A DNA stretch of 64,000 nt from Malonomonas rubra DSM 5091 (GCF_900142125.1 NZ_FQZT01000001.1:372001-436000), one strand, 5' to 3'. Counted from the stretch's first letter, positions 5,808 through 37,840 are shown. Program-made: numbers and translations. The notes: generated from the sequence alone by a model not told the origin.

Positions 5808-5842
5808 CAGAACCTCCGGCATCCAATTGATAAGTTCCTACT

Positions 5843-8327: not shown

Positions 8328-8407
8328 CTCCTTACCTCCGTTTCTGGTCTTGCCAAAACCTCCCGCCGACCACCCGTTGGCCTGCGGCTTTACCTCCAAA
8401 AAGTTTA

Positions 8408-9547
8408 TCAATCAGCGATTCCATCTTTCGCTGTATGACAAGCAAAGCACCCACATTCACTGTCTGTCGACCCATTCACACAGGTATCATAATTCCATCT
8501 CAGCATATTTGGTTGAGACGAACCATGTGGTCGATGACAAGAAATACAGGTAACTATACCCTGGCCAGCAGCGGTTACGTCTTCATAGGCAACCGGCGCA
8601 AGCGCGGTATAAATGTAATTTGCATACTCTCCGGTTTCCGGCAGCACAACATCTGACGGATGGCGTATCCAGGCACCAGAAGCATCCATCATCCCACCGT
8701 CCGAATCGTTCTTTTCGTGATGAAAATTTGAATGACACCCGCTACAAAAAGCTCCGATGCTGTTATAAGGAACATTGCCGTTACCTGTTGCAGACATATA
8801 CTGAACCGTTGTTCCCTTATAGGTATTGTGGCTGGCTCCTGGACTTTGCTCCCAATTAGGATCTTCCAGGCCAGTCACCCCTTCTAAAGACATCAATGAA
8901 TCACGGGACAGGTCCGGATTGCGAGCCGCTGTCATTGCTGCACCGCTAAGAAAACGGTACCAACCATCGCCACTGTCAACAGCATCAGTCGAATTTCCAT
9001 CGTCCTGGTGGTGAGCCGGGTAATGGCAACCCCGACAACCGCTTGTTGATGTCGCCAGTGTTCCGTGACAATCATCACAGCCTGCTCCACCAACACCACC
9101 TCCAGGAGCAAAGCTCAAAGTACTATCTGCAGGGTTCGCTCTCAGCCCATAAACATTGTGACCCTTGTCATCATCACCGTCAGCAACCCAGAAAAAGTTA
9201 CCGCCAGCCAAAACATTCGAACTGCTACCACCTGGCTCGGGCGGGTCTGTTGGCTCAGAGCCTGTCAGCACAATTGGAATCCGAATAGCCCCAGACTCAA
9301 CGATCGTGGAACTACCTTCCATATTGCTATGGCATCCCAAACAATCAGAATTCAGCAAAGTCACCTGAGCAGTTCCCAAAGGGTCTCCATCTTTATCCCG
9401 GGCAACATCTTGCCCATCCTGGCTATTGTGTATTGTATGGCAGTTAACACAGTCACCAGTAACAGCTGCAGGGGCAATATCAACGCACAAAGCCCCCAGA
9501 ACAAGCAGCACCAAGCCTAGTACCACTCCCCCTTGTGACGTTTTCAT
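8408..9547 (-). CDS. OmcS-like heptaheme extracellular cytochrome (paralog B)
   Basis: This 379-residue secreted protein carries seven CXXCH motifs: CVNCH, CLGCH, CDDCH, CRGCH, CSGCH, CISCH, CFACH. Its landmarks (CHTIHNS, GGNFFWV, KGHNV, WYRFL, IRHPSD, CISCHRPHGS, CFACHTAKDG) match paralogs A and C. Where these have a single CX5CH, this protein has CDDCH plus CRGCHYPAHH, so the central heme region differs. Start ATG 9547 has AGGG about nine bases upstream; a TTG at 9556 is less likely. It is the first gene of a two-gene transcript with paralog A. Predicted site is the cell exterior, and the probable role is filament subunit or terminal reductase. Confidence 0.85.
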   Translation of the reverse strand: MKTSQGGVVLGLVLLVLGALCVDIAPAAVTGDCVNCHTIHNSQDGQDVARDKDGDPLGTAQVTLLNSDCLGCHSNMEGSSTIVESGAIRIPIVLTGSEPTDPPEPGGSSSNVLAGGNFFWVADGDDDKGHNVYGLRANPADSTLSFAPGGGVGGAGCDDCHGTLATSTSGCRGCHYPAHHQDDGNSTDAVDSGDGWYRFLSGAAMTAARNPDLSRDSLMSLEGVTGLEDPNWEQSPGASHNTYKGTTVQYMSATGNGNVPYNSIGAFCSGCHSNFHHEKNDSDGGMMDASGAWIRHPSDVVLPETGEYANYIYTALAPVAYEDVTAAGQGIVTCISCHRPHGSSQPNMLRWNYDTCVNGSTDSECGCFACHTAKDGIAD

Positions 9548-9938
9548 TTTAACCAACCCTAAATAAAATTACTAAAGAAAAATAAAATAAACACGACCAT
9601 TCTAGCGCGATAACGAAAGGCAACCCATAACATAATCGGCCTCACCCCTTGAAGCATCCTCGCCGATCTCGCGCAAACAGCCTACTTAATTAAAACAACT
9701 ACTACATATTACAGCAAAAAACACTCCAACAAAATTGCTTTTATCGGTTTTAGAAAAAAAAAACAAACAACCAACTCTTACATAGTATATTCAAAGACTT
9801 ACAGGAAAAAAATGAAAATGTTACCAAGGAACCATGTCGCCATTTGGCCGTTTTTCATAAAAATATAAAGCCATTTAGCGGCATCCGATTACTAATATAT
9901 TCCCCTAATAAGATTAAGCGATTCGATGAGATTGCCGA
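9548..9938. promoter_or_regulatory. 391-bp AT-rich leader between the two cytochrome transcripts
   Basis: No gene is seen. The region separates the long operon (ending at 9939) from the OmcS-like pair (starting at 9547) and must contain the pair's promoter and leader. It contains the sigma54-like element listed at 9713-9729. I looked for a cyclic-di-GMP GEMM riboswitch, common before Geobacter cytochromes, and did not find its conserved core. Confidence 0.55.
9713..9729 (-). promoter_or_regulatory. Candidate sigma54 promoter for the OmcS-like pair
   Basis: Minus strand TTGGAGTGTTTTTTGCT shows GG-N10-GC spacing, TTGG at -24 and TTGCT at -12, with a poorly matched CAC. It would give a leader of roughly 155 nt before the ATG at 9547. 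Supported by spacing and by the similar element at 7098-7114, but the AT-rich context raises chance matches. Confidence 0.35.
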
Positions 9939-11336
9939 TTAAAATTTAGTCTCCAAAAGAGCCAAGCTTTTTGGCTGGCCACCGTAGTTGATTGACCGAA
10001 CAATCTTCTCTGTTCCCTGGTCAATAACAGTCAAATACGCACTATTTTTTGCCACAACATAAAGCAGGCGCTTTCTCGAAGAGTGAATCATTTCCGCTGG
10101 GCTTGAAACTGATCCGATTCTCCTGAAGGCAACATTTTGGCCCGCGGTAAGAACGGAGAGCGACTGGCCTATAGAATTACTGACGTAGGCCGTCTCTTCA
10201 TCAACGGACAACAAGAAAAGAGGCCCCATATCAACACTGATTCTTGCTATTTGACGACCGGACTGGGGGCTATAAACAGACACCGACTGGCTTGCAGATT
10301 CAGCAACATAAAGAGATTGGGCAAAGTAAAGCAATCCGTGTGGCTTTGCTCCCACCTGAATTGCCTGATTCAACTCCAATGTATCAGAATTAAGTATAAA
10401 CACCTGACTCGACGAAGCAGAACTCACTGCCAACAAATTTAGCTCATCGATTTCAAGTAAATATCCAGGACGATGCCCAAGCCTGCGTTGGACGGTCATC
10501 CTTCCTTCAGACAAGTTGACTTTATATACCGACCCTGCAGTCGGATCGGAGACGTAAGCATAGCGGCCACCGGCCGACAAAATCATATATTCAGGAGAAA
10601 CAGATGAGGATAGCAGGATTTGATCCAGAAGGCGCTCGTTTGCACAGTCATAAACATAGATGGAGCGGCGGCCTTTACTCAATACGTACAGTCGCTGGCG
10701 CACATCATCCAGACAGATTTCCGCCAGCGGGCCAGGAATGCCAAACGCTGCGACAACTTCACTGTTATCAATTCGAGTGACATAAACAGTGTTCAACTCA
10801 CCACAAGCAACGTAAAGCAGGTTACCCCCCAAGACAGGTCTTTGTCCCCAAGCCTTAAAAGCAGGGACAACCATTCCATTCCCCTGCCCCTCGCGAAGCA
10901 TTTCCCACTCTATGAACAGGCACTTGCTATCTCCCCTGTTCAGGTCAAGAGTTTCCGGTAGGGTAAGATGAAAATTGCGTAGTTCGCCTTCTTCTCCCAA
11001 TCCACGGACAAGCAAACGTAAACTACGGTGCTGACCGAGAGGAGCCACAGAGGCTCCAAGCAAAAGTTGGCGCCCCTTTTGTTGCTGAAAATCGACACTG
11101 GCGGGAGGAAGGTCAAGGTCGATCCAGATATCATCAACCTGCACAGAAAGGCCTACAAACTGTAGAGGTGCTATCTCCTCAACCACACCTCTACTTTTTA
11201 AATAGACGGTCAAAAGCGCCTGCTGGTCGCTGAAAGACAAAGGGGCTCTTGCATCAGGAGCACTCACCGAGCATCCAGAAGCAAGCAAGAGCAAGAAAAC
11301 CAGAACTGACAATATAATCTTAACGTTACACCCCAT
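9939..11336 (-). CDS. Beta-propeller (YVTN-type) lipoprotein
   Basis: A 465-residue lipoprotein: signal peptide with lipobox ending ASGC (Cys about 22). It is followed by a ~140-residue N-terminal domain and then about seven repeats of the YVTN/NHL type (LLYVACGELNTVYVTRIDNSE, RLYVLSKG, YAYVSDPTAGSVYKV and so on) predicted to form a beta-propeller. I place the start at ATG 11336, eight bases after the upstream cytochrome stop; the longer frame from 11375 would overlap that gene. It is the last gene of the long cytochrome operon. NHL/YVTN proteins also accompany omcS in Geobacter; a scaffold or assembly role is inferred. Confidence 0.82.
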   Translation of the reverse strand: MGCNVKIILSVLVFLLLLASGCSVSAPDARAPLSFSDQQALLTVYLKSRGVVEEIAPLQFVGLSVQVDDIWIDLDLPPASVDFQQQKGRQLLLGASVAPLGQHRSLRLLVRGLGEEGELRNFHLTLPETLDLNRGDSKCLFIEWEMLREGQGNGMVVPAFKAWGQRPVLGGNLLYVACGELNTVYVTRIDNSEVVAAFGIPGPLAEICLDDVRQRLYVLSKGRRSIYVYDCANERLLDQILLSSSVSPEYMILSAGGRYAYVSDPTAGSVYKVNLSEGRMTVQRRLGHRPGYLLEIDELNLLAVSSASSSQVFILNSDTLELNQAIQVGAKPHGLLYFAQSLYVAESASQSVSVYSPQSGRQIARISVDMGPLFLLSVDEETAYVSNSIGQSLSVLTAGQNVAFRRIGSVSSPAEMIHSSRKRLLYVVAKNSAYLTVIDQGTEKIVRSINYGGQPKSLALLETKF

Positions 11337-11344
11337 TTGCGAAT

Positions 11345-12424
11345 TTACCTTTTGCTCGTATGGCAGATGCCACATCCGGCGACACTGTTCGGATAATCCC
11401 AGCGAAGAATTTTGTAATACGGGCTCCCATGGGCTCGATGGCAGGACACGCAGGTCAAAATCTGCTTGTCGTAATTCCCAAGCACAGATGCTGAGGTCAT
11501 TGACGCTAATACAGTGGCTGCAACCGGAGCCTCAAGAGAATAGGCTGAGGAATTAACAGGTTCTATGGTATCGCCGTAATAAGTGAACTCGCCTCCAAGG
11601 GTGCTCATGTCAATATCAGTCGGATGGCGTAGCCATGGGCTGCTCGTTCCTCCAATTTCAGTGCGTGTGTGAAAATCACCATGACACTGGGCACAGAGAG
11701 CGCTAATCGTACTGCTATCACCATCCCCGACAGAACCGTAATAAACATTATGGTCACTTGTCGTTTCAGCCCAGCCATCGGAGCTGTTCAATTCGATCCC
11801 TTTAACACCTTTAAGAAATCGATAACTAGAGCCAACTGTGCTGCCAGAGAGAACGGTCGAGCCATTATTTCCTGCATTGGTATGATGAGCCCCCTCCATT
11901 GCGTTGAATTTATTATTTTCACCATGATCCCCATGACAACCGTAGGTTCCGGAACAGGTGAGCGGAGTCGAAGCCGAAAAGGTCCCTATATCACCTGACG
12001 TAGAGGAGTTAAAGCCAGGAGGAAGGCCGTCAAAGGCTAACCCGAGGTCCGCAACATCATGGCCAGTTGTTTCACGTGCGGGGGTTTCAGGCGTTGCTGG
12101 CGAGGCCGCCCCAAGAACCCAGGCGAATGAGCCACCAGCGAGGACATCGGACGAGGTCGAGATGTTCACCTTTGGTACGGAAAGAGTGGTCGAATCAGCA
12201 TGGCAGCCGCCACAACTGGTCCCCCTTAGCAGCATGTTCCCAGCAGTAGCACTACCATCAAAGGTCATCACAGAGCCGCCCTGACTGTTGTGCATGGTGT
12301 GACAATCGACACAGGCCCCGGTAAGAGCCAGCGCAGCCACTGCCTGGCAAACAAAGATCAAGGCCAACCCCAAGACGCGAAACAGTCTATACTGCTGACG
12401 GTATTTTATTTGTGGAGATTTCAT
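11345..12424 (-). CDS. OmcS-like hexaheme extracellular cytochrome (paralog C)
   Basis: A 359-residue secreted cytochrome, start ATG 12424 with GGAGG four bases upstream and signal peptide ending near ALA. Five CXXCH (CVDCH, CGGCH, CAQCH, CVSCH, CGICH) plus CSGTYGCH, a CX5CH followed by GDH, appear in the same order as in paralog A. The stretches CHTMHNSQ, TAGNMLLRG, SYRFLKG, GAHHTNAGN and SPWLRHPTDIDM are nearly identical to paralog A, showing a recent duplication. It lies inside the long operon between an NHL protein and a propeller lipoprotein, whereas paralogs A and B are on a separate transcript. Likely a filament subunit or a cap/adaptor. Confidence 0.85.
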   Translation of the reverse strand: MKSPQIKYRQQYRLFRVLGLALIFVCQAVAALALTGACVDCHTMHNSQGGSVMTFDGSATAGNMLLRGTSCGGCHADSTTLSVPKVNISTSSDVLAGGSFAWVLGAASPATPETPARETTGHDVADLGLAFDGLPPGFNSSTSGDIGTFSASTPLTCSGTYGCHGDHGENNKFNAMEGAHHTNAGNNGSTVLSGSTVGSSYRFLKGVKGIELNSSDGWAETTSDHNVYYGSVGDGDSSTISALCAQCHGDFHTRTEIGGTSSPWLRHPTDIDMSTLGGEFTYYGDTIEPVNSSAYSLEAPVAATVLASMTSASVLGNYDKQILTCVSCHRAHGSPYYKILRWDYPNSVAGCGICHTSKR

Positions 12425-12447
12425 AAGCCTCCGTTACCGCTAAAATA

Positions 12448-13338
12448 CTATCGGGTCAGAATATCGACCCGGCCGTTCCCCTCGTCAACCACACAAAGCC
12501 GCTCATCCCAGTCAAATACCAGCTCCTCAGGGAACCAGAGTTGCCCCGGCCGCTTCCCTTTACCGAGAAACTCAAACCGCTTATCTCCAGCAGGTCCATA
12601 AACAGCAACAATACCTGCGTGCCGATCCAGTACATAAAAACGTCCCGCACTATCAACCTCGAGAGAAACAGGAAACTCCAGCCCAGACACCGAGACAGGC
12701 GCACTTGCAACTCCGGAATTGTCAAAATGGTAGATCTGAGCCTTACGTCCGTCCAACGCCCAAATCCCATCAGATTTAAGCTTGAAATCAACGAAGCCAG
12801 CAAAAGCCTCCCCCCCACGGAACTGCCTTTTCACACTCAAATCATCGTCCAGCTCCAGAACAGATCCACGCAACTGATCAAGAACAAAAATACGATTTTT
12901 CGGATCAATTGCAATTTTCCCGAGCCTGACCCATGAACCGTCCGGATATTTCACCCTGAATCGCTGAACTTTCTGTAGCCTGGGGTTGATTTGCAGAAGC
13001 CTATTATCCGCCCTATCGACAACCCAAAGAACGCCTTTCTGACTGCGCGCCAAAGAAATCGGCGTTTTCAGTTCCCCACCAGCATTAAATGCAGCAAGGA
13101 ACTTGCCAGTATTATCAAATGATACCAGCTGTCCTCCTTGCGCATCGACCAGGTAGTAGCGTTGCTTGTCAAAATCAACATACAGAGCAGTAGCTAAATC
13201 AATCTTCACCCCAGCTTTTCTATCCGGTAGTTGCCTGTCATAATTCCAAGGGCCTGCAGCCAGCACAGAAGAGGCAAAAACCCCTGACAAAAAGATGGCC
13301 AGAGCGCCCAACCACATTTGTTTCAAACGCGCATTCAT
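12448..13338 (-). CDS. Periplasmic NHL-repeat beta-propeller protein
   Basis: This 296-residue exported protein has a signal peptide (ending SSVLAAG) and six or so NHL-type repeats, each with a [WFY]VLD-like strand (GVLWVVDRADNRLL, RIFVLDQLRGSVL, GIWALDGRKAQIY, RFYVLDRHAGIVAVYG, RLCVVDEGNGRVDIL). Such propellers bind proteins or glycans; none of the blades carries a heme motif. ATG 13338 was chosen: signal peptide follows directly, GGGGG is six bases upstream, and it clears the previous stop by 10 nt. The longer frame to 13434 overlaps the 16-heme gene. It neighbours the OmcS-like paralog C, as the NHL gene does next to omcS in Geobacter. Confidence 0.85.
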   Translation of the reverse strand: MNARLKQMWLGALAIFLSGVFASSVLAAGPWNYDRQLPDRKAGVKIDLATALYVDFDKQRYYLVDAQGGQLVSFDNTGKFLAAFNAGGELKTPISLARSQKGVLWVVDRADNRLLQINPRLQKVQRFRVKYPDGSWVRLGKIAIDPKNRIFVLDQLRGSVLELDDDLSVKRQFRGGEAFAGFVDFKLKSDGIWALDGRKAQIYHFDNSGVASAPVSVSGLEFPVSLEVDSAGRFYVLDRHAGIVAVYGPAGDKRFEFLGKGKRPGQLWFPEELVFDWDERLCVVDEGNGRVDILTR

Positions 13339-13348
13339 TCCAGCCCCC

Positions 13349-14524
13349 TTAATAACCCTGATGGCACTGAACACAGAGCCCTCGCTCCGCGCTGCCACGC
13401 AAATAGTAACGATAATCGGTTCCGTCATTGGCATTGTGACACGTCAGACAATCCATCGCCTGATTATTGCGTGGGTCTATTGCGCTCTCCCCTATTGGAT
13501 GGGTAAATCCCTTATGCTGATCATGGCAGAGGTTGCAGACCTTCTGTCCTTCGATCAGCATGGCGACATGGTTACTGCCATGAATATTGTGGCAATCGTT
13601 GCAGTTCTCCCAGTTTTCATGCTTATGCAAACTCTTCCGACGTCGCTCAAAGGTGTCGGCATGACAATCCTTACAGACATTGCCGAGCACACCAGGCAAA
13701 AGTCCCTTGCGATCGCCCACATGCGGGTTATGACAGCTGGTACAGGGATTCCCCGAACCACTGACACCCAAATGGTTGTGGGCATAATTGAAACTTCCCA
13801 AAACAGCTTCATGGCACTGCAGGCAGTTATCGAAGTCGTTTTCGCCATCATGACAGGCGCGGCAATTCTTATCTGCAAAGGGTTTATGGCTGAAAGCCCT
13901 TAACAAGTTCTGAGACTCGCCACCATGAGGGTGGTGACAACTCAGACAATCAACACCGCTTAGATCTTTACCCAGATGCTTACTGCGCAGCTGCTTGTTA
14001 TCCTGATGGCAGGAAAAACAGAGTCCGCCAGCGTCGGCCTTCAACAGACGAGAATCACTCCCGCCATGTGCAGCGTGGCAGGCACTGCAATCTCCGTCAA
14101 CATAGGGTTTATGGCTATACGTGAAAGTCTTGTGCGTCTCTTCGTGACAGCTAAAACAAAGATCACCACCTGTTTTACTCAACAGCTTTCCGTACTCCGC
14201 AGCATGAGGATCATGACAACTTGAGCACTCACCTTTCCTCACGGGTTCATGCAAAACCATTCCCCCCCCAAGTTCGCTACTCAGTTCCTGATGACACTCA
14301 AGGCACAATTCGTGGCTCTTTTTTTTCAGCAGCTTTTCGAAACGGGAAACATGAGCGCCATGACAAACCAGGCAATTCGCTTCTGCCACAGGCTTGTGAA
14401 CCACCTCCCCCTTAAACTTTCCGGCATCGTGACAGTCGAAGCACTCCATCGCGCCAACAGAAAAAGGGACACACAGAAGCCAGACAAGGACAAAACCCTG
14501 AAGGATCCTAAAAATTGACATCAT
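13349..14524 (-). CDS. 16-heme c-type cytochrome
   Basis: A 391-residue protein with signal peptide (cleavage near SVGA-M) and 16 CXXCH motifs, many in the doubled CXXCH pattern with CHxPH or CHxxH giving the distal His. Roughly one heme per 24 residues implies a largely heme-wired chain. The start ATG at 14524 overlaps the stop of the 26-heme gene in an ATGA arrangement, with GGGAGGGAG just upstream, so translation is coupled. No lipobox is seen, so it is probably periplasmic or inside an outer-membrane barrel. It is a strong candidate for the wire between periplasm and cell surface together with the barrel at 20816-22912. Confidence 0.9.
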   Translation of the reverse strand: MMSIFRILQGFVLVWLLCVPFSVGAMECFDCHDAGKFKGEVVHKPVAEANCLVCHGAHVSRFEKLLKKKSHELCLECHQELSSELGGGMVLHEPVRKGECSSCHDPHAAEYGKLLSKTGGDLCFSCHEETHKTFTYSHKPYVDGDCSACHAAHGGSDSRLLKADAGGLCFSCHQDNKQLRSKHLGKDLSGVDCLSCHHPHGGESQNLLRAFSHKPFADKNCRACHDGENDFDNCLQCHEAVLGSFNYAHNHLGVSGSGNPCTSCHNPHVGDRKGLLPGVLGNVCKDCHADTFERRRKSLHKHENWENCNDCHNIHGSNHVAMLIEGQKVCNLCHDQHKGFTHPIGESAIDPRNNQAMDCLTCHNANDGTDYRYYLRGSAERGLCVQCHQGY

Positions 14525-16473
14525 TCACTCCCTCCCTTGTGACAGGAGCGACACTCTCCCTTGGCAAAAGGTTCGTGCTTTACAGGCAAGGTGAGGGACG
14601 CATCCGGCCCACCATGAGGGTCATGACACTCGAGACAACTATCCTTGCCAGGAGCGATCTGCCGGTGGACTGCCGACATGGTTTGCGGATCGACATCATG
14701 ACAATCAGCACAAAGAGTGACCACACTTCCAGCTGTTTTGAGCTGTTGTGGCTGGTGTGGATCATGGCAACTGCTGCACTGACCCTCGGCAGCAGGAGCA
14801 TGAGCGACTCCCTTTTCCCAGAAGCGATCGATGTCGTGACAGTTCAGACAAAGATCGGGTGGTGGCTTTAACAAGAAGGCATTCTCATCGTTGCCATGGG
14901 AATAATGGCAAACGGAGCAGTTCTGATGGCCTCCCGGTGTCCCCGCAATAGGTTTCCGCTCGCGATGGCATTCAACACAGACCTCCTGCACCGGACGTTC
15001 AAGTAAAAACGGCTGCTGGCTTCCATGCGAACGGTGACAAAGCTCACAGCGCCCCTGGTTGAAGGGTTGATGGCGAGCATTCTCTCGTTCGGTTTCAATC
15101 GTTCCGTGACACTGGCCACACCCTTGCGCACCGGTTGTTCGCAGCAATTGTTTCTTTTCCCCACCGTGCGGATCATGGCAGGACGAGCACTTCCCGTCGA
15201 CAAAGGGCCGGTGCAGGCTCTGCAAGCCAAGGTCTTCTCCAACCTGCTGATGGCATTCAGCACAAAGCGGACGCTGCGGTTTCACGAGAACACCTGGCTG
15301 GGTGCTCTCGTGAGGAACATGACATCCAAGGCATTCCAGATCTGCAACGGGTTGATGATTCACCTTTTGCCGCTTCGCTTTTTCTGCATGGCAATCGATG
15401 CAGAGTTTTGACGCATCCTTGCGCAAAAGATTCGATTGCCCTTTGCCGGGCAGATGTGGACCGTGACACTTCAGGCAATCACCTGTTCCGGCTGGGGCAT
15501 GCACGTGGCCGATCGGGGCATTTTCTTTTTGTGTCGGGAAGAATTTGAAGCTATGGCACTCGAAACAGATATTCTTCGGATCTGCCTTTGCGATCCCCTT
15601 GAAGTCACTGGCATGAGGACTGTGACAGGCAAAGCAATCACCATCTGCAACTGGGGCGTGCGTTTGCGACGCTGAAAAATCGGTTTTCAGATCTGCATGA
15701 CATGTGTAGCAAAGCGCTGCTGCATTCTGAGTCACTGCAAAGGGGGCAGTATCAGTCGCCGCAGCGTGACAAGATGCACAGTTCAGACTTGTGACAGGCT
15801 GATGAGTGAATTCTTTCAACAATTTCGGATTGTCGGCAGAGTGGACACTGTGACAGTCAGAACAGCCACTTTCTACCGGATAGCCGCCGTGGGCTTTCTC
15901 AAAAGCCTTGCTGCCGACAGAGTGACAATCCTTGCAAAGCGCAGACTCGTCTTTTATTAACAGACGACCGACTTTAGCGCCGTGAGGTTCGTGGCATGTA
16001 CGACAGCCTTTTTCCAGCGGGGCATGAACATACTGACGTGTAAACTTTTTCTCTTCATGACAGCTGAAGCAGAGCTGCTCATCCGGTTTCGTCAGCAAAT
16101 TTTCGTTGGGCGAGTTGTGAGGTTGGTGACAAAGGGAACAAGCCCCCTTATCGACAGGATCGTGGTGCAGTTTCTTTTCCGTTAGTTCTTTCGCCAGTGC
16201 CTGATGGCAGGTAAAACAAAGAGCAGCACCTTCACGTTTCAGATATGCACCACCGACCAGGCCGTGTTTACGGTGACAGCCGAAGCAGTCGCCTGTTTTG
16301 ACCGGCTTATGAACCACTCCGGCAGAATAAAGCGAGCGGTAATCTTCATGGCAATCCAGGCAGGACTTGCCGTCTCCCCCCTGCTGTCCACTCGGCACAC
16401 AGGCTGCCCCGGCCAGTAACAGCAAAGCCGACAACAGCGCCAACAGACTTCTCAGAACGGCCCTGTGGATCAT
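14521..16473 (-). CDS. 26-heme c-type cytochrome lipoprotein
   Basis: This 650-residue protein has a signal peptide with lipobox ending GAAC and then 26 CXXCH motifs spread over the whole chain, alternating as pairs roughly every 25 residues (doubled CXXCH repeats). Lipidation suggests outer-membrane attachment, either surface-exposed or periplasmic. I chose ATG 16473: it overlaps the upstream TGA as ATGA, has GGAGGAGAAGG upstream, and begins the signal peptide. The heme number is in the range of the large multiheme proteins of Geobacter but exceeds OmcB (12). It is coupled with the parvulin upstream and the 16-heme cytochrome downstream. The terminal electron acceptor is unknown. Confidence 0.9.
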   Translation of the reverse strand: MIHRAVLRSLLALLSALLLLAGAACVPSGQQGGDGKSCLDCHEDYRSLYSAGVVHKPVKTGDCFGCHRKHGLVGGAYLKREGAALCFTCHQALAKELTEKKLHHDPVDKGACSLCHQPHNSPNENLLTKPDEQLCFSCHEEKKFTRQYVHAPLEKGCRTCHEPHGAKVGRLLIKDESALCKDCHSVGSKAFEKAHGGYPVESGCSDCHSVHSADNPKLLKEFTHQPVTSLNCASCHAAATDTAPFAVTQNAAALCYTCHADLKTDFSASQTHAPVADGDCFACHSPHASDFKGIAKADPKNICFECHSFKFFPTQKENAPIGHVHAPAGTGDCLKCHGPHLPGKGQSNLLRKDASKLCIDCHAEKAKRQKVNHQPVADLECLGCHVPHESTQPGVLVKPQRPLCAECHQQVGEDLGLQSLHRPFVDGKCSSCHDPHGGEKKQLLRTTGAQGCGQCHGTIETERENARHQPFNQGRCELCHRSHGSQQPFLLERPVQEVCVECHRERKPIAGTPGGHQNCSVCHYSHGNDENAFLLKPPPDLCLNCHDIDRFWEKGVAHAPAAEGQCSSCHDPHQPQQLKTAGSVVTLCADCHDVDPQTMSAVHRQIAPGKDSCLECHDPHGGPDASLTLPVKHEPFAKGECRSCHKGGSE

Positions 16474-18104
16474 GATGCCTTCTCCTCCAAGAGCTCTTTG
16501 CGTAATGTCTGCCACTTCCCGTTGTTGAGCTTGATCGTCGAACGCTCACGCAAGCGGCGGACGAAATCATCACGAACAGCTTTAAAGTGCTGCTTTTCCA
16601 ATGTTTTTCTAATCATCTCACGAACGTGCTCTAAAGGCATCACTTTTGTTTCCACAGCCCGCACCACTTTAATGAAGTGAGTATTGGCACCATCAGGGAT
16701 AACCGTAACCTGCCCCGATGCCAAGGATTTAACGGCTTCTTGAACAACCGGTTTCAAATGAACCAAAGGCTCTTTTTTCACCTGCACTCCAGACGGAGAG
16801 ATCGGTTCCATCACGGAAAAAAATTCGGCACCGTTCTTCAACTTCTCGGCAATATCTTCCGCCAGAGCTTCTTCGTTTGTCGTCACCTGGGCATATTCGA
16901 TCATCCCCTGATCTGAAAACTGTTCTCCGTTTTCGTTATAGTAGTTTTCAATATCGGCATCGGTCACCTGAACCTCCGGCTGCACTACGACCCGCTCAAA
17001 CTCTTTGAGCAAGCGGTATTGCCGATAAAAATCATATACCGGCTTCAGCGGCGGCACCTCTTCGTAGTTTCGATCCAATGCCGCTTTTTCTGTCAGCACC
17101 TGAACCAGGATATCGTTAACCACCCGCTTCTTTGTTGCCTCAAAGGATTCAGCGTTACGTCTCGCAGTTCCTCTGAGCTTTTGTCCTTTTTCAATTGATG
17201 CATAAACAAAACTGGCTGGAATTTTCAAATCCTCGATCGTAATGGCAATTTTATCCGCGTCCGCAGAGGGAACTCCATCAACAGTGATAGTATCGATCAA
17301 TGACTGATTGATCTGCACTGCATATTCTTTCTTCAGCTGATCAAGCAACTGCGCTGTCAAGTCAAGCTCCTGCTGTTTCAAACTATTGCGAATCAGCTTC
17401 TGTTTGAGCCCAGCAAAATCTTCCTCGTTACCATCCTGCCGCTGTAAAACCTCCAGAAAGTACCAGACATGACCATATTTGACCGGCCCGGCGACATCCC
17501 CCTGCTGCAGTGGCAACACAGCGGCACGCAAGACCTCCGGAATACGGGTAAAACGCATCAAGCCCGTCGACTCGAACTGTTCAGCTTTCCCTTCCAACCC
17601 TGCTGTCTCTACCAGTTTTTCAAAAGCCACACCCTGGGCGATCAATTCCTGCAACTGTGCAGACTGATTATCGTCCTGCACTGCGATCATGCGGAGGTCA
17701 AGCAACGGCGTGTATTCTTCCTGATAGGTTTGCCAAAGCTCCTCCTGGGGCGGAATAACCTTCTTCGCATCCACCTCTTCGGCCTTGAGCTGCATCAGCG
17801 AACGAACCTTGAGAAAAACATCCAGCTTTTTTTTGTAGCCGGGATTTTCAAACAGCTGCATGGCGTCTGCTTCACCTGACAGGAGAAGAAAGTCAATATA
17901 GGGGTCGAGCGATTCATGCACCGCCATCCCCGGCTCCTGCCATTCTTTCCACCAGTGACGATAGTCCTGTTCCGTATATTCCTCACCGTTTATCTGTAGC
18001 AGATAGCTCTGTCCCCAGAACGCGCAGCTCAACTGCGGCAACAGGCACAGAAGCAACAAAACCCACAACGGGGTCAAACAGGTTTTCAAACCACTCATCG
18101 ACAT
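16470..18104 (-). CDS. Exported parvulin-type peptidyl-prolyl isomerase / chaperone
   Basis: A 544-residue exported protein; the signal peptide ends near LSCAFW, possibly a lipobox-like LSC. It has SurA/PpiC architecture: an N-terminal helical chaperone part, a parvulin-like region around residues 120-230 (LRMIAVQDD, VAFEKLV, PVKYGHVWYFLEVL), and a second weaker one around 400-500. Such proteins help fold outer-membrane and exported proteins in the periplasm. A PPIase gene is also near omcS in Geobacter, so a dedicated foldase for cytochrome filaments or the barrel is plausible. ATG 18104 has AGGG six bases upstream and overlaps the upstream gene by 10 nt; ATG 18098 gives an ATGA overlap and is nearly as good. 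Confidence 0.8.
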   Translation of the reverse strand: MSMSGLKTCLTPLWVLLLLCLLPQLSCAFWGQSYLLQINGEEYTEQDYRHWWKEWQEPGMAVHESLDPYIDFLLLSGEADAMQLFENPGYKKKLDVFLKVRSLMQLKAEEVDAKKVIPPQEELWQTYQEEYTPLLDLRMIAVQDDNQSAQLQELIAQGVAFEKLVETAGLEGKAEQFESTGLMRFTRIPEVLRAAVLPLQQGDVAGPVKYGHVWYFLEVLQRQDGNEEDFAGLKQKLIRNSLKQQELDLTAQLLDQLKKEYAVQINQSLIDTITVDGVPSADADKIAITIEDLKIPASFVYASIEKGQKLRGTARRNAESFEATKKRVVNDILVQVLTEKAALDRNYEEVPPLKPVYDFYRQYRLLKEFERVVVQPEVQVTDADIENYYNENGEQFSDQGMIEYAQVTTNEEALAEDIAEKLKNGAEFFSVMEPISPSGVQVKKEPLVHLKPVVQEAVKSLASGQVTVIPDGANTHFIKVVRAVETKVMPLEHVREMIRKTLEKQHFKAVRDDFVRRLRERSTIKLNNGKWQTLRKELLEEKAS

Positions 18105-18688
18105 GTAATTCCCTTATTGAACCAATCTTCGATTATTTCCTGTGACATTTTTTCAGTTAAACCACTCAGGGTCGTTTCGACGCCAAAGTGCATCAGTTTA
18201 CGGAAATCATCCCCTTTGCGCTGATGAACTGTATTCAGCACCAGCGCTCCGGTATCAGCATCGTAAACATTGAACGCTAAAGACAAAAAGGGCACTTTTT
18301 CATCACCAGATCGCCGGACGGAACCTGCATCAACAACACGTCCCTGGATAACCACATCAACTTCAAGCTGACTGGCCATATCAGTCAGATGCCTTTTAAA
18401 CAGCGATGACCCGGGGCGAAGCCGCTGGCGTAAAAAAAACATGCCGACATCGCCAGCCTGAACAAGGTTGAACTCGCCCGTCTGCAGCAACTGTGAAGTA
18501 AACAGACGCTCAGTCAGCAAAGCCACCTCCTGCTTCCTCGTCCAGTTTTCAAAAGGCAACAGAACCACACTGCAAATATTGGTGTCAGCACCAGCCATTA
18601 TTCTGGTCTGCAGCCCATGGTGATTTGAACAGCCCAGTAATGTTAAGCAAAGGCCTAACAGCAAAAAATAGGTTATCTTCTTTTGCAT
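18095..18688 (-). CDS. Small lipoprotein with LpoB/CsgG-like N-terminal fold (copy 3)
   Basis: A 197-residue lipoprotein (lipobox LLGC, Cys20). After a short spacer it has the pattern VVLLPFENWT-x-RLFTSQLLQTGEFNLV-DVGMFFLRQRLR and later a DVVIQGRVVDAGSV strand, as in LpoB/CsgG/TolB-N-like domains. Its start ATG overlaps the stop of the upstream gene by one base (TGATG), a sign of coupling. It is one of three consecutive genes with this motif pattern. The role is unknown; the fold family includes secretion-channel and activator lipoproteins at the outer membrane. Confidence 0.7.
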   Translation of the reverse strand: MQKKITYFLLLGLCLTLLGCSNHHGLQTRIMAGADTNICSVVLLPFENWTRKQEVALLTERLFTSQLLQTGEFNLVQAGDVGMFFLRQRLRPGSSLFKRHLTDMASQLEVDVVIQGRVVDAGSVRRSGDEKVPFLSLAFNVYDADTGALVLNTVHQRKGDDFRKLMHFGVETTLSGLTEKMSQEIIEDWFNKGITCR

Positions 18689-20184
18689 CAGAAATCCGGC
18701 ACCCAGGATTCAGCTTCCTGCTTCTCGATTTTCTTCTCTCCCGCAACAACCTGCAGCTTTACTTTTTTCCCGCGCAAACGATTGCCGAGAGGATCGACAC
18801 CATCAACTGTCAAATAAGCCCATTTTTCACCTTCAACCGGTAAAAAATCAAAGGTTGCCGGCAATTCTCGGCCCTTCCCTTTTACCAGCAAAGCCCCGGT
18901 CATTGAGCGCAATTCAACTCGCCAGTTACTCAGCGGAAATTCGTAAAAGCCTGCCGCATGCAGCGTTAGACTTGCTTCTCCCTCAATGTTTTTGATTTTC
19001 CCCTCAACTTTCGGAGGATAGGCCTGTAGAACAATTCTCTGCTCTGCCGCGGATCTGTTGCCGGCCAAATCCCAAACTTCAAGACCAACGGTGTATACTC
19101 CGTTATCTAAACGGAAACCGTCGCCGCCGCGCCCCTCCCAGATCATCCGTTCCGGCAGATCAGTATCGTATTCTTCATACGCAACAACCTGCCCTCTTTC
19201 GTCTTTAATGGACAAAGCCCAGCCGGCCATTGGGCGCAGATTGTCAACCCGCGGCAAAATCAGGACATGGTTACGAAAGGCCAACCGCTGTCCAATTTTG
19301 ATTGTTTTCTTGATCTCCATCTCCAGGCCGGGAGCGTCGTTGATGACTTCGTAGCTGGCAACCGATTCCAATCGCTCGACTGTTCTCTCACGCCCCCACT
19401 CGAAACGCAAATCAACGTCATAACGGCCATCTTCTCGCGGAGCAAACCATTCCCCTTGGTAGCTGTCAGTGCGGCGGTCATATTGCAGATAACTTTTCCC
19501 GATTTCGCTCTCGGCGGCAATAAAAGTTGGCCGTTTGCCCAAAAAAAGGATTTTTAAATCTGCTTTTACCAGCTGACTTCCTCGAACATAGCCAGGGTAG
19601 AGAGAGAGGCCAACCAACTGGTAATCCCGGCTTTCCAGTGATGATGCATTATGGGCAATGTCTGCCAGCGGAGACAAAATATCCTTCAGTACTGGGCGAG
19701 CCAGATCAACAACCGACTTCGCTTCCCCAACCCCCAGTATCGGTGCCTGTTCTTTGACGCTGGTCGCTTCAGATGCCGACCAGACAGGAGCACCATCGAC
19801 AGTATCAAGCGCAGTAAAGGTCAAACCGATACTTGGCGTTTTTTCATCCATTTCGGTCACGGTACCGAGCAGGACCAAAGAGGAATCGAACTCAGCACCG
19901 ATTTTTTTCACCAGATAACTATCGAGGAAACGAAAACTCCGCACCTTGTTACGTGCCATAAACAGCATCAGATCATTACGGGAAACCATCTCGACACCTA
20001 GCTGCTTCAAACTGGTTTCTACCGCCTTGGTCAGTTGCAGGTTTACGCCGTTTTCCCCTTTGCTGAAATCAGACATTGGCAGTAACGCGACTTTCTGCGC
20101 ACTGACAAAATCAGCATGCAGAAGCAGGCAAAAAGCCAGAGCTAATATCAGGGAAAATCGGTATAAGGTTCGGATACAGCTCAA
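18688..20184 (-). CDS. Exported protein: LpoB/CsgG-like domain plus FlgD-type Ig-like domain (copy 2)
   Basis: A 498-residue exported protein. The N-terminal part (residues ~30-150) repeats the KVALLPMSDF / AVETSLKQLGVEMVSRNDL / DSSLVLLGTV pattern of its two neighbours. A central beta-rich region follows, and then an Ig-like domain with NGVYTVGLEVWDLAGNRS, typical of FlgD-type Ig domains (about 350-395). The start is TTG at 20184, four bases after the upstream stop, with GGGGGA eight bases before; an in-frame TGA at 20200-20202 prevents any longer start. It follows closely the lipoprotein at 20189 and is coupled with that at 18095. Confidence 0.75.
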   Translation of the reverse strand: MSCIRTLYRFSLILALAFCLLLHADFVSAQKVALLPMSDFSKGENGVNLQLTKAVETSLKQLGVEMVSRNDLMLFMARNKVRSFRFLDSYLVKKIGAEFDSSLVLLGTVTEMDEKTPSIGLTFTALDTVDGAPVWSASEATSVKEQAPILGVGEAKSVVDLARPVLKDILSPLADIAHNASSLESRDYQLVGLSLYPGYVRGSQLVKADLKILFLGKRPTFIAAESEIGKSYLQYDRRTDSYQGEWFAPREDGRYDVDLRFEWGRERTVERLESVASYEVINDAPGLEMEIKKTIKIGQRLAFRNHVLILPRVDNLRPMAGWALSIKDERGQVVAYEEYDTDLPERMIWEGRGGDGFRLDNGVYTVGLEVWDLAGNRSAAEQRIVLQAYPPKVEGKIKNIEGEASLTLHAAGFYEFPLSNWRVELRSMTGALLVKGKGRELPATFDFLPVEGEKWAYLTVDGVDPLGNRLRGKKVKLQVVAGEKKIEKQEAESWVPDF

Positions 20185-20188
20185 GAGG

Positions 20189-20785
20189 TCAATCCCCCGT
20201 CATCGTTGCCAATAAGCGTTTTGCCAGGCGGAAACCAACCTGGTTGACATCTTCCCCGGCAAAACCGAACAAACGATCAAATGTACGATAGCCCGTTTCG
20301 CTGCCGCTCGCCTGCCAGATAATCTGTCCGCTGTTGACATCAACCAGGCGCAGGGTTGCAGCAATGACCGGGTATGAGTAACTGCCGTTTTGTTCTTCTC
20401 GAAAATCCTCAACGGCCCCGGAGAGGTAAGCCTGAACATTCAGCTCCTGCCCCAGTCGCATTGCCGTCGCCATATCGAGAGAGCCCTGATCTTTCTGGAT
20501 CAACTCCTCCTGCAGGAAACGTTGTGATTCCCCCTTTTCAACAACCTCAAACAATCCGCGACTGAGGATTTCTGTCACTACAACATCAGAAAATCTCAAC
20601 TCAGCAAATTTGAAATCGGTATGATTTTCAAACGGAAGCACAGCAACCCGGGTTACATAGCCCAGCCCTAAACTCTCTGCAGCATAATGCCGTGGTGCAC
20701 TGGAGCAGCCACAGAGCAGCCCGATACTGAAAAGTAGAATTATTATCCGGTATCTAAGCACGATAGCACCTTTCTCTTTTCGCAT
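20189..20785 (-). CDS. Lipoprotein with LpoB/CsgG-like domain (copy 1)
   Basis: A 198-residue lipoprotein with lipobox LCGC. Visible motifs are RVAVLPFENHTDFKF, VVTEILSRGLFEVVEKGE, LNVQAYLSGAVEDF and ATLRLVDVNSGQIIWQASGS. These match LpoB/CsgG/GNA1162-like outer-membrane lipoproteins, which assist peptidoglycan enzymes or form export channels (CsgG for curli). The ATG at 20785 has AGG six bases upstream. It follows the barrel gene with a 30-nt gap and is followed by TTG-start copy 2 after four bases. Confidence 0.75.
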   Translation of the reverse strand: MRKEKGAIVLRYRIIILLFSIGLLCGCSSAPRHYAAESLGLGYVTRVAVLPFENHTDFKFAELRFSDVVVTEILSRGLFEVVEKGESQRFLQEELIQKDQGSLDMATAMRLGQELNVQAYLSGAVEDFREEQNGSYSYPVIAATLRLVDVNSGQIIWQASGSETGYRTFDRLFGFAGEDVNQVGFRLAKRLLATMTGD

Positions 20786-20815
20786 TTCTACCTACCGACA
20801 ATTGACGTCTAAAAG

Positions 20816-22912
20816 CTAAAAAACCATATTCAACGAGCCGTTAAAGTTCCAACTCGAGGCATCATCTGTAATCGTATAATTACCATTCGACTGCAGGGAC
20901 AGGTAGCGACTGATCATCCAGCTTAGCTGAGCATTGTAAGTCTGCTCGATTTCATCTGCAAACTCATAGGTAAAACCAAATCGTGATTGCAGTTTACGGC
21001 TCCAGAGCCAGCTCGTATAACCGGTCAGTGTTGATGTATTATCTTCGATTTCACCGTCATAGCTAACATCGATCAACAACATATCGGAAGGGCGATAACC
21101 CAAATCTATTCCGTAAGTTGTCGCGGTTGTCGTATCTCCGCCAGTCGATTCTGACTCTGAGTAACCAAGATCGAAATCGAGATCAGCTTTAGGCGACAGC
21201 CGCGCGGTCATCCGCACAGTTGTTCCGTAACTGCTACTTTTGGTCTCTTCATAGGAGTTTTTGTTTTGCGACCAGTGGACACTCCAGGACGCTGTCAGGT
21301 CCGGATAAATTGCCGCTGTCAATGTTGAGCTGACCGAATCGCTGGTCGTATCCCGACCATCATCTGAACTGTTGTCAGTATGCGTGTAAGCAAGGGAGTA
21401 GTTCAGTGTCGACAGAGGCAGAGCATTCATCGAGAGAGAATATGAGCGGCTTTTCCTGTCCGCTGAATTGTCTGCTTCATCAATGTTATCTGTGACCGCC
21501 AGGCTGAAACCGACCGTGCCGTTCAATCGATATGAACTGGTCAGCGACTGATTCAGCTGCAGGGTATCACCGGTATCATACTGATTCTCCACCCTTCTCA
21601 GGCTATAAGAAACCGTCCAGCGATCGGTCAGGTTGACTGTTGTACTAAACTGGCTTTGGATAGATGTCGTATCTCGCGTGAGCTCAACGTTATCCAACAA
21701 AGACACGGTAGAATTGTAGGCAACAATATCGTCTACGTAGGCGTGATAGGTTGCATTTTGTGACAGCGACACCACCTTGACATAATCAGCAGAGTAGCTG
21801 CTAGACAAGGACAACGTGACAACAGTACGGAAATTACCGTTGAAATAATCCCCACCGACAGTCACGTTAAAGTTGCTGGCAGGAATTTCAGTCCACGAGC
21901 TGTCACCCACATTGAAATAATAAATTTCCCACTCGGCATCAGAATCCAGCAGGTCGGCGACAGAATCCTGCAACGTTGTCCGCTCCGAACCAATCAATCG
22001 GTACAAGCCAACTTTCAACACATCGAATTCACCATTGATCGGCGCAGCGTCGTTCAGCGGGCTGTCAATCTGGATCGTCATATTCTGATCGGTTTGTTGA
22101 AAAACATCTTCCCCGACAAAAGACCCTGTCCCTAATGAAGCGGCCGCATCATCTGGATCTGCGTCGATCTTGTAGTAACGTCCACTGGTCACAAGTGCGC
22201 CATCAGGATTTTTTGTCGTGCTTTCAGCAACTTTATACTGCTGCGAAGCTGAAACTGCGACCCGGCCGTTCCAAAAAGTGTCGGCATAGCTGACCTGACC
22301 TGTCTGGTCCAGTGTCTCACTCTCAGTCAGCTCGATATTATTGGTCGACTGTGAATAATTGGCATCGTAAAGCATTTCAAAAGGGCCGTAGTTGTAATCG
22401 ACACTCACCCCGGCAGAATCGGATTGCGTATCAGTCAAGTCCTCGTCATCGGTTGCAGTACTCTGGCTGATATACAACCTGACACCGGGCCAGCCCTCTG
22501 CCAGATTGCTTGACAGGTTCGCCCCCCAAGCGTCGTTTGTCCGGGTTGCCGAACCTTCGCTCTCCGATTTGGTTTCAGAGGCATTAAGGTTCAGATTAAA
22601 TAGATCGTTACGCAAATCAAAAGATAGCCTGGGGCTGAGAGTACTGCTGTCACGTCCTTCAGAAGGGCTGCTCTCGCTGTAGCGCACCGAACCGGAAAAC
22701 GACATGGCAGCGCTCAGATCCTTGCTATAAGTCAGATTGTAGTTCTGACTGACTGTTGAGCTATCCTGATTATCCCCGCCAGCTTCCTGATAATTCCAGC
22801 TGCTATTAAAACCGAAAGGGTCGCCTGCATGTACTGGTGCAACAACCAATAACGGCAAAAATGCCAGGCCGATTAGCAGCCAGAAAAATTTATGTCGTCC
22901 CGTCAGCAGCAT
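20816..22912 (-). CDS. Outer-membrane beta-barrel protein (putative porin of a porin-cytochrome conduit)
   Basis: This 698-residue exported protein has a signal peptide (ending PVHAG) and a long run of alternating amphipathic strands with many Ser/Thr/Tyr residues (SFSGSVRYSES, YGIDLGYRPSD, LSWMISRYLSLQSNGNY), ending in a C-terminal Phe, the BamA recognition signature. Residues ~250-400 (DDAAASLGTGSFVGED to VDDIVAYNS) look like a non-barrel insert, perhaps a surface or plug domain. In Geobacter, porin-cytochrome (Pcc) and ext conduits pair such a barrel with a multiheme cytochrome inside it; 12-, 16- and 26-heme candidates flank this gene. No good ribosome site is seen before ATG 22912, but an in-frame stop upstream and the signal peptide fix the start. 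Confidence 0.82.
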   Translation of the reverse strand: MLLTGRHKFFWLLIGLAFLPLLVVAPVHAGDPFGFNSSWNYQEAGGDNQDSSTVSQNYNLTYSKDLSAAMSFSGSVRYSESSPSEGRDSSTLSPRLSFDLRNDLFNLNLNASETKSESEGSATRTNDAWGANLSSNLAEGWPGVRLYISQSTATDDEDLTDTQSDSAGVSVDYNYGPFEMLYDANYSQSTNNIELTESETLDQTGQVSYADTFWNGRVAVSASQQYKVAESTTKNPDGALVTSGRYYKIDADPDDAAASLGTGSFVGEDVFQQTDQNMTIQIDSPLNDAAPINGEFDVLKVGLYRLIGSERTTLQDSVADLLDSDAEWEIYYFNVGDSSWTEIPASNFNVTVGGDYFNGNFRTVVTLSLSSSYSADYVKVVSLSQNATYHAYVDDIVAYNSTVSLLDNVELTRDTTSIQSQFSTTVNLTDRWTVSYSLRRVENQYDTGDTLQLNQSLTSSYRLNGTVGFSLAVTDNIDEADNSADRKSRSYSLSMNALPLSTLNYSLAYTHTDNSSDDGRDTTSDSVSSTLTAAIYPDLTASWSVHWSQNKNSYEETKSSSYGTTVRMTARLSPKADLDFDLGYSESESTGGDTTTATTYGIDLGYRPSDMLLIDVSYDGEIEDNTSTLTGYTSWLWSRKLQSRFGFTYEFADEIEQTYNAQLSWMISRYLSLQSNGNYTITDDASSWNFNGSLNMVF

Positions 22913-22932
22913 ACAATCAGATTCGTCTCAAA

Positions 22933-23709
22933 TCAGTTGATCAAGAGGTGCGGACCACCGTGGCAATCGACGCACTTCGGAAATTGTTCATGCATACCAG
23001 CATCATGCGGTTTGAAATGACAAGTTTCACAAGTCGGAATCCTTTTGTGCTGACTCTTATGGCAATAAACACAAAGGAGCAAACCATGCTTGGTCACAGT
23101 TTGCTGTAAACGTTTACCTGGACCAGGATGACATGCCTCGCAATGGCGCGAATCAAGAGTATTCAGGTAGACGACCTTAAGTGGCGAATGGGGCTGATGA
23201 CACAAGCGACAGTCGGCATAACTCTGACCATTCAAATGGGGCTCGTGACATTCCAGGCAATCGAGGTACTGACCATGCTCAAGGTGGCAGTCTTTACAAT
23301 CGAGAATACTGTGGTTGCTTGGATAATCGAACAGCTCACCCCCCTGCGCCGGGTGGCAACTACTACAGGCTTCATTGGTACGTGATGCCCGCCGAAAATC
23401 GATCTGCGTAGGGCTGTGGGGTTTATGGCAGCCAAGGCAATTGCTCACCTGGTAGTGGTCTTTGTCCTGCGGTTCATGACACAGGGAACAGGCCGGTATC
23501 GCGTTGGTTCCCCGAGGCGGATGTTCCTGATGACATTCGATACAGGTCACCGCATCACGGTGTTTGCCACCGAATTCGGCAACTGTCGCGAGTATATCTG
23601 TATGACACATTTGGCAGTCATCAGCCTGCAGCGGAGGGGCCTCAACAGCAAAAGCATTCAGACAATGGAGCATAAAAACCAAGAAGCAGAGAAACGCAAG
23701 CGGGCGCAT
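22933..23709 (-). CDS. 12-heme periplasmic c-type cytochrome
   Basis: A 258-residue cytochrome with a signal peptide (ending AFAVEA) and 12 CXXCH motifs, most as CHxPH or CHxEH pairs: one heme per ~20 residues. There is no lipobox. Size and heme density match the periplasmic cytochrome of Pcc-type conduits (for instance 8-heme OmaB is about 230 residues). It begins in a TGATG overlap with the NHL-SPOR gene; GGAGGTGA lies nine bases upstream, and a GTG at 23712 is equally spaced. The neighbouring gene downstream is the barrel. Confidence 0.9.
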   Translation of the reverse strand: MRPLAFLCFLVFMLHCLNAFAVEAPPLQADDCQMCHTDILATVAEFGGKHRDAVTCIECHQEHPPRGTNAIPACSLCHEPQDKDHYQVSNCLGCHKPHSPTQIDFRRASRTNEACSSCHPAQGGELFDYPSNHSILDCKDCHLEHGQYLDCLECHEPHLNGQSYADCRLCHQPHSPLKVVYLNTLDSRHCEACHPGPGKRLQQTVTKHGLLLCVYCHKSQHKRIPTCETCHFKPHDAGMHEQFPKCVDCHGGPHLLIN

Positions 23710-25103
23710 CACCCTTCACCTCCTTCGTCCACATTCGGGAGCTCCAGCTCAAAAGCTTCGCCGCGGGTGCGCATTATTGCTGGCACACGCTCTTCCTTGC
23801 GCAGTTGCTCACTGACATGGTACCCCTCTAAAGGATCAAGGTAAGGTCCGACAAGTACTTGAAACCAGATGCCGCTTCTGCTTCGCTGAAGCTCCCGCAG
23901 AATCACCGGGTATCCTTTTCTTGCCAGATCAAGCTTGATCATCTCAGCATCAGCTTGATTCTTGGTGATAACAGCAACCACAAGAAAATCACCTTCGCTC
24001 TCGAGTTGCAGTTCATCTTTGAGCCGACGAATATAGGTAAACTCTTTCGGTTGCTGTGTTTCCTCTTGAACCGCCTCTTCAACAAATTCATCCTGAGCCA
24101 GCAGATAGGGCTGTTCAGGCTGTTCCTGTTGGCCGAAGCCCTTGCCACTGATGAATTCAAAAACCTGCACACGATGATTAAAGGTGTCCGCTACGATCAC
24201 CCGTCCACGGCCGTCAACAACAACATCACTCGGGTAATAGAACCATCCCCGCCCGGCACCCAGACCACCAACTTCAAACAGAAACTCACCGGTTTTCGCA
24301 AAAACAGTCATGGTGTGGCGCTGATAATCGACCAGGTAAACCTGACGTCGCACATCATCGACAGCAATACCGCGCGGACGTGAAAGTTTACCGACCTCAC
24401 CGCCCTTTTCTCCGAATTGATACAGCAGTCGCTCATTCCGGTCATAGACAAACACCCGCCCCATCGACTCACTCAGCATATAGAGTCTGCCATCCAGGCC
24501 GATTTCAATCGCCAGAATCGGAGCCCTTTCGGAAACTCCGAGAACCTGACCTTTCGGTCTGATCCAGCGAAGAAAGTTCCCCTCATTATCAAGAACCATG
24601 ACGCCAGTGCCGTTCATGCCAACGACATAAATTTTACCGTCATCGGAAACAACCAGATCCAGTGGCGAAAAATGTTCAAAGTCGGGGAAAAAAATATTCC
24701 GTACCGGCATAAAAGCCATATCGTAGACAGCGATATGCGGGCGCAGTTCTTTATCACTTGCGCCTACGCAAACGTACAGATAGCCATTACGGATATAGGT
24801 TTTGCTGATACTATGCAGTCCGCGGCCCGAACCGATCGACAAGTAGGGAAAGTAATCAGGAGTCAGAACAACCAGCTTGTTGGTCTGAGGGCTGGTCACA
24901 TAGATTTCATCACCATCACGGTCGTAGCTGACACCGGATGGAAAACGCAGATCTGTGCCACTCTCGTCGACCTGTAAGGCTTCGACTGAACGCATAACCT
25001 GAACATGCGGCATCTGCGCTTGAGTTAGCTGAGGCAACAACTGCACAGCCAGAACAAACAGCACCAGATAAATTATTCGTGCAAAGCTAACCGCAGCAGA
25101 CAA
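23709..25103 (-). CDS. NHL-repeat protein fused to a C-terminal SPOR domain
   Basis: This ~464-residue exported protein has a signal peptide (QLTQAQ), NHL/beta-propeller repeats (residues ~40-320: EIYVTSPQTNKLVV, GRLYMLSESMGRVFVYD, QVYLVDYQRHTMTVF, GRVIVADTFNHRVQVF), an acidic Gln-rich linker and a SPOR domain (~385-455, FLVVAVITKNQADAEMIKL to FQVLVGPYLDP). SPOR domains bind denuded glycan strands of peptidoglycan, often at division sites. It may anchor the electron conduit to the cell wall. The start is uncertain: no ATG; TTG at 25103 has GAGG nine bases upstream and gives a good signal peptide; TTG at 25127 is the longest. First gene of the long operon. Confidence 0.8.
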   Translation of the reverse strand: MSAAVSFARIIYLVLFVLAVQLLPQLTQAQMPHVQVMRSVEALQVDESGTDLRFPSGVSYDRDGDEIYVTSPQTNKLVVLTPDYFPYLSIGSGRGLHSISKTYIRNGYLYVCVGASDKELRPHIAVYDMAFMPVRNIFFPDFEHFSPLDLVVSDDGKIYVVGMNGTGVMVLDNEGNFLRWIRPKGQVLGVSERAPILAIEIGLDGRLYMLSESMGRVFVYDRNERLLYQFGEKGGEVGKLSRPRGIAVDDVRRQVYLVDYQRHTMTVFAKTGEFLFEVGGLGAGRGWFYYPSDVVVDGRGRVIVADTFNHRVQVFEFISGKGFGQQEQPEQPYLLAQDEFVEEAVQEETQQPKEFTYIRRLKDELQLESEGDFLVVAVITKNQADAEMIKLDLARKGYPVILRELQRSRSGIWFQVLVGPYLDPLEGYHVSEQLRKEERVPAIMRTRGEAFELELPNVDEGGEG

Positions 25104-36591: not shown

Positions 36592-37809
<1,218 letters not shown>

Positions 37810-37840
37810 TCACATCAAGAAAATCAAGGAGTTCCCTGCA

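Follow-up and report, generated by a model that had tools for sequence, protein, structure and literature searches.

A predicted second lineage of the osc/Oet cytochrome conduit and filament assembly machinery in Malonomonas rubra

The window analysed here, a 64,000 nt stretch of the Malonomonas rubra DSM 5091 genome, carries twelve consecutive minus-strand genes between positions 9939 and 25103, with gaps of 30 nt or less and five overlaps, as determined from the ORF listing, inspection of the start codons and spacing. The genes are transcribed in the order L, K, J, I, H, G, F, E, D, C, B, A, with spacings, from L to A, of -1, 20, 30, 4, -1, -10, -4, -4, 10, 23 and 8 nt. A 391 nt gap (9548-9938) separates A from the downstream gene s2, so the genes downstream of A may have their own promoter; scans for promoters and terminators gave match numbers about the same as those of shuffled sequence. 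The system probably extends past 9939 to include s2 and s1 (7206-9547) and M and N (5256-7045), because in other loci homologues of these genes lie within the same cluster or at its end. In the following list heme numbers are counts of CXXCH motifs, and the Osc and Oet names refer to described systems that are compared below.

23709-25103, minus strand: L, secreted NHL-repeat propeller, 464 aa (Pfam NHL, 1.9e-19)
22933-23709, minus strand: K, 12-heme c-type cytochrome with signal peptide, 258 aa (12 CXXCH)
20816-22912, minus strand: J, predicted outer-membrane beta-barrel, OscE/OetI counterpart (AlphaFold2, Foldseek, synteny)
20189-20785, minus strand: I, LpoB/PelC/CsgG-family lipoprotein, OscF counterpart (Pfam LpoB, 1.3e-10, and CsgG, 5.5e-5; lipobox)
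18688-20184, minus strand: H, secreted protein with an Lpo-like N-terminal part and a FlgD-like Ig domain (FlgD_ig, 6.4e-4, below cut-off)
18095-18688, minus strand: G, Lpo-like lipoprotein (lipobox LLGC; relation to I)
16470-18104, minus strand: F, periplasmic PPIC-type peptidyl-prolyl isomerase (PPIase), OscH counterpart (Pfam Rotamase_2, 2.2e-19)
14521-16473, minus strand: E, 26-heme lipoprotein cytochrome, OscI/OetB counterpart (26 CXXCH; lipobox)
13349-14524, minus strand: D, 16-heme periplasmic cytochrome, OscJ/OetA counterpart (16 CXXCH; without lipobox)
12448-13338, minus strand: C, secreted NHL propeller, OscK counterpart by position (Pfam NHL, 1.5e-11)
11345-12424, minus strand: B, OmcS-like cytochrome, candidate filament subunit (5 CXXCH and the CX5CH motif CSGTYGCH)
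9939-11336, minus strand: A, YVTN/YncE-type propeller lipoprotein, related to OscD (NCBIfam propeller, 4e-20; lipobox)
8408-9547, minus strand: s2, OmcS-like cytochrome with 7 CXXCH (42% identical to seven-heme proteins of loci L059 and L060)
7206-8411, minus strand: s1, OmcS-like cytochrome (5 CXXCH and the CX5CH motif CAGTYGCH; match to OmcS 6ef8)
5843-7045, minus strand: M, pentaheme cytochrome with a fibronectin-like insert (5 CXXCH)
5256-5822, minus strand: N, membrane protein paired with M (HAMP, 0.0033, below cut-off)

The first-pass annotation had proposed the packed run of twelve genes, and most of the parts that it named were borne out, Pfam and NCBIfam being consistent with most of the assignments (J and G gave no Pfam match). 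The CXXCH counts of 12, 16 and 26 in K, D and E were exact, F contains the PPIC domain expected of the parvulin, and the three propellers were present, as NHL repeats in L and C (Pfam) and as a YVTN/YncE-type propeller in A (NCBIfam, with a sub-threshold Pfam match). The C-terminus of L also has a weak SPOR-like Pfam match (0.0029, below cut-off), and a homologue of L opens the operon in L053-L058. Orthologues of K have 11-12 hemes and adjoin the barrel gene, and C comes after D in nearly every locus of this lineage. A PROSITE-like lipobox pattern was found in E, I, G and A; in B and s1 the pattern falls on a heme cysteine and so is no evidence for a lipoprotein.

Three LpoB/CsgG-like proteins had also been claimed, and this was upheld in part. 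For I it was supported by curated models and by structure matches (PDB 5t11, 1.8e-9; PelC 9h80_C, 2.6e-5), the pass against the CsgG model being weak (23 bits against a cut-off of 20.8) and LpoB and PelC matching better. G was linked to the family by BLAST, in which its orthologues match I at up to 5e-12, whereas H has weak Lpo similarity only; its place between I and G is kept across this lineage. In two other loci the second LpoB-like gene is part of larger proteins of 1136 and 1152 aa (L153, 5296-8706, and L155, 6319-9777). The matches of I to LpoB, CsgG and PelC would also fit a curli- or Pel-like device that secretes a non-redox polymer, with the cytochromes as passengers, but the neighbouring genes examined included no polysaccharide synthase or curli subunit, and few parts of the cluster are better conserved than the 26- and 16-heme proteins, so that we regard such a device as very improbable. 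At the position of F the mapped relatives have PPIases that are 22-68% identical. A separate SurA/PpiD-like PPIase of 678 aa lies away from the operon (window 37760-39796, plus strand).

The barrel J has no sequence family, in that no Pfam porin family was found and an NCBIfam model was matched only below threshold, yet AlphaFold2 predicted a beta-barrel with confidence (pLDDT 84); the model has 28 long strands, and a further domain is inserted at roughly residues 239-405. Many barrels matched this model in Foldseek, and the top TM-score among the matches listed, a moderate 0.42-0.44, was that of MtrB (6r2q_B), which favours reading J as part of a conduit. The same reading is favoured by the matches of E (3e-22) and D (3.9e-15) to MtrA of the same MtrAB structure (6r2q_A; the entry is titled 'Structure of the Mtr complex' and its chain A carries a different molecule name). 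A large barrel together with an MtrA-like multiheme wire, as in MtrAB and Pcc, was therefore found here (28 strands vs about 26). The cluster differs from MtrABC in that its wires have 16 and 26 hemes vs 10, no MtrC-like gene was recognised in the window cluster, and a PPIase, Lpo-like proteins and OmcS-like subunits are added. The heme-motif residues of E were invariant among 11 aligned relatives. E and D are fused in a single ORF of 1012-1096 aa with exactly 42 CXXCH in 11 loci (L068, L082, L107, L115, L116, L119, L120, L121, L122, L124 and L127); 10 of the 11 fusions align as E then D, L122 being less clear. These 42-heme fusions, which are possibly a new feature, suggest that the 26- and 16-heme cytochromes act as a single wire.

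ORFs were mapped in eleven relatives and 79 named loci, and a constant core was apparent, J - I - [H/I] - [G] - F - E - D - NHL, with OmcS-like cytochromes nearby and the M-N pair inside the cluster or at its end in many loci (N follows M in L062, L063, L075, L078, L084, L098, L113 and L141). The loci span Thermodesulfobacteriota, Myxococcota, Nitrospirota, Acidobacteriota and several candidate phyla; most come from metagenome assemblies, which calls for care with claims about single genomes, and one labelled Heimdallarchaeota is probably a binning error. Since this order is kept in dozens of loci from many phyla, the arrangement is not due to chance. In searches of 41 relative genomes the barrel was detected in 15; PPIase matches came from 33, many of them weak and to ordinary parvulins. 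The genome tally was at most 68 of 226, an upper bound, since some of the matches counted are partial ones to other multiheme cytochromes.

A Geobacter-type cluster is present in the same genome as the window (L062, G000:C26:8000-27900). Its contents include two six-CXXCH OmcS-like cytochromes and homologues of M and N, and it too begins with a 12-heme homologue of K. In a tree of the 26-heme proteins, made by a quick method with SH-aLRT support and without bootstrap, the window protein fell in a clade of 29 rows (SH-aLRT 99), and that of L062 in one of 21 rows (SH-aLRT 100) with Geobacter, Geomonas and Anaeromyxobacter. Because the two proteins lie in separate supported clades, the window operon would represent a second lineage of known machinery. 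OmcS-like cytochromes were present in 26 of the 29 loci of the window clade and in 18 of the 21 of the Geobacter clade, the stretches behind these counts often being cut by contig ends.

The OmcS-like cytochrome proposed for B in the first-pass annotation was confirmed as OmcS-like, its sites being five CXXCH and one CX5CH. B and s1, which are 57% identical, both have CX5CH in place of the third CXXCH of OmcS, within the motif C-[AS]-G-x-x-G-C-H-G. The OmcS-like profile A2 matches OmcS (6ef8) at 3e-24, and s1 alone does so at 2.4e-11, making it the best candidate for a filament subunit; its gene overlaps that of s2 by 4 nt. An apo AlphaFold2 model of s1 had a pLDDT of 48 and speaks neither for nor against the OmcS fold. 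A profile search gathered 106 OmcS-like proteins, of which 58 have CXXCH at the third-heme position, 47 have CX5CH and one has another spacing. Counted by locus, CX5CH occurred in 25/26 of the window clade, 0/18 of the Geobacter clade and 4/5 of a Nitrospirota group, and on a fast tree the label required 4 changes vs about 35 in shuffles, a contrast that kinship among the sequences inflates. The alignment places the first Cys of CX5CH over the first Cys of the OmcS CSSCH, and its His over a His that is conserved further downstream in OmcS (H141, as numbered in the fragment used). Two further conserved His residues (HH) are found in the CX5CH group and not in OmcS, and these could take the ligand role. 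By sequence, CX5CH in B and s1 would thus be a site of heme attachment, and with B, s1 and s2 the cluster would encode the OmcS-like hexaheme kind of cytochrome found in osc, a hexaheme status that for B and s1 assumes that CX5CH binds heme. As a full-text search of openly accessible papers for the spelling 'CX5CH' gave none, the motif is possibly unreported in OmcS-like proteins. We tentatively suggest, at slightly under an even chance, that subunits of this type bind their third heme via CX5CH and form a class of nanowires with its own osc-type exporter. If CX5CH does bind heme, hexaheme nanowire subunits have been under-counted, because searches that require six CXXCH skip these proteins.

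The closest described system is the osc (OmcS companion) operon of Geobacter sulfurreducens (GSU2504-GSU2493; Shen et al., 2025, doi 10.1016/j.chembiol.2024.12.013), as it is presented in PMC13194489 and PMC12977616. The set reported there comprises omcS, omcT/oscC and an eight-gene block, GSU2500-GSU2493, and the proposed roles are folding of OmcS for OscH and secretion for OscE, OscF and OscG. We assigned Osc letters to the window genes from gene order and from the anchors named in these accounts, namely OscH, OscI (GSU2495), OscJ (GSU2494) and OscE-G. The Geobacter-type reference locus L148, whose OmcS is 72% identical to PDB 6ef8 (the best OmcS match among the genomes searched was 73%), fits the reported order, with OmcS, a second OmcS-like protein, a propeller, the barrel, two LpoB-like proteins, the PPIase, the 26-heme protein, a protein with 15 heme motifs, and NHL. 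The window operon shares these classes of protein with osc as so described, and the ordered core of barrel, LpoB-like, PPIase, 26-heme, 16-heme and NHL is present in the window, in L148 and in dozens of loci. It differs in that the OscD-like propeller, A, lies at the 3' end (in Geobacter-type clusters the propeller that precedes the barrel is retrieved by the profile of A with scores of about 100-140 bits), that K and L are added in front, that OmcS-like proteins carry CX5CH, that the 26-heme protein belongs to a separate clade, and that H and G stand where the reported operon has OscG, a replacement that is possibly new. Thus the OscD-OscK block as reported, with OscD ahead of the barrel and a single OscG, was not matched in the window; the position of A, the two genes in place of OscG and the gap after A make the operon a variant and not a simple copy of osc, nor an osc operon in the strict sense.

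Earlier accounts cover other parts. The OetABI system of syntrophic sulfate reducers, with the barrel OetI and the cytochromes OetA and OetB (Murali et al., 2023, PMC10553843), resembles the window in having an outer-membrane barrel, a lipoprotein cytochrome (here E), a periplasmic cytochrome (here D) and OmcS-like genes nearby, a likeness at the level of description and not gene by gene. C00003106, from which that paper took its OetI query, gave L087, whose 26-heme protein falls outside the half of the tree that holds the window protein. An operon of 26-heme, 16-heme, PPIase and propeller genes has been described, one of its clades including Desulfuromonas and Desulfurivibrio alkaliphilus having two copies (Skennerton et al., 2017, PMC5539420), as there are two clusters in the present genome; the barrel, the Lpo-like genes and a filament role went unrecognised for that operon. 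The first-pass annotation had suggested that the whole set may be undescribed, and this idea is ruled out by Skennerton et al. (2017) for the core, Murali et al. (2023) for the barrel-cytochrome conduit and, as far as the accounts cited describe it, Shen et al. (2025) for the assembly machinery. Close homologues in a studied conduit were, for the most part, found, and by gene content and order we judge that the operon is a diverged, largely syntenic second lineage of the known osc/Oet machinery and not a new system.

We consider it likely, from homology, that the cluster encodes an MtrAB-like conduit and, coupled to it, a set of PelC/LpoB-like lipoproteins and a PPIase for the folding, export and anchoring of OmcS-like filaments. 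B, s1 and s2 would enter the periplasm and take up their hemes, one probably via CX5CH, and the isomerase F would help to fold them. Lipoproteins I and G, with H, may form a PelC/LpoB-like assembly beneath barrel J, PelC being a ring-forming lipoprotein, and this assembly would pass the subunits outward to polymerise outside. D and E would meet end to end, either through J or alongside it, linking the periplasmic carriers K and M to the base of the filament, and the propellers A, C and L would be scaffolds or assembly factors. This proposal is favoured by the synteny across dozens of loci, by the match of I to PelC and of the OmcS-like profile to OmcS, by the 42-heme fusions, which tie D to E physically, and by L148, in which OmcS lies upstream of the same ordered core, including the Lpo-like gene. 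The joint role claimed in the first-pass annotation stands to the extent that the same role has been proposed for osc, in the accounts cited, and for OetABI plus OmcS, and those accounts assign the homologous block to OmcS folding and secretion. Against it, Skennerton et al. (2017, PMC5539420) report no expression of these cytochromes while several species, Desulfuromonas acetoxidans among them, respired metals, and whether Fe(III) oxide reduction needs cytochrome filaments is a matter of dispute (PMC11077965).

The genes might instead encode an OetABI-type electron conduit only, working in either direction with metal oxides, electrodes or a syntrophic partner, in which the OmcS-like proteins would serve as surface cytochromes in monomeric form and the PPIase and Lpo-like proteins would do no more than help to build the conduit. 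The barrel and MtrA-like wires are clear, uptake of electrons from methane-oxidising archaea is proposed in the OetABI paper (PMC10553843), and filaments of this lineage are a prediction. We nevertheless think this unlikely, given the OmcS-like cytochromes that accompany most loci of both clades, as counted in stretches often cut by contig ends, and the reported part of the homologous OscE-H genes in OmcS folding and secretion, as given in the accounts cited. Read as a coupled conduit and filament apparatus, the operon bears on how bacteria build and anchor cytochrome nanowires. A deeply separate second lineage beside the Geobacter-type one in the same genome offers a natural comparison, which could tell the essential parts (barrel, PelC-like lipoprotein, PPIase and 26-/16-heme wires) from those that are swapped.

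Elsewhere in the window, selA- and selB-like genes adjoin each other (44287-47605); the organism therefore probably makes selenoproteins, and selenocysteine may be inserted at some TGA codons.
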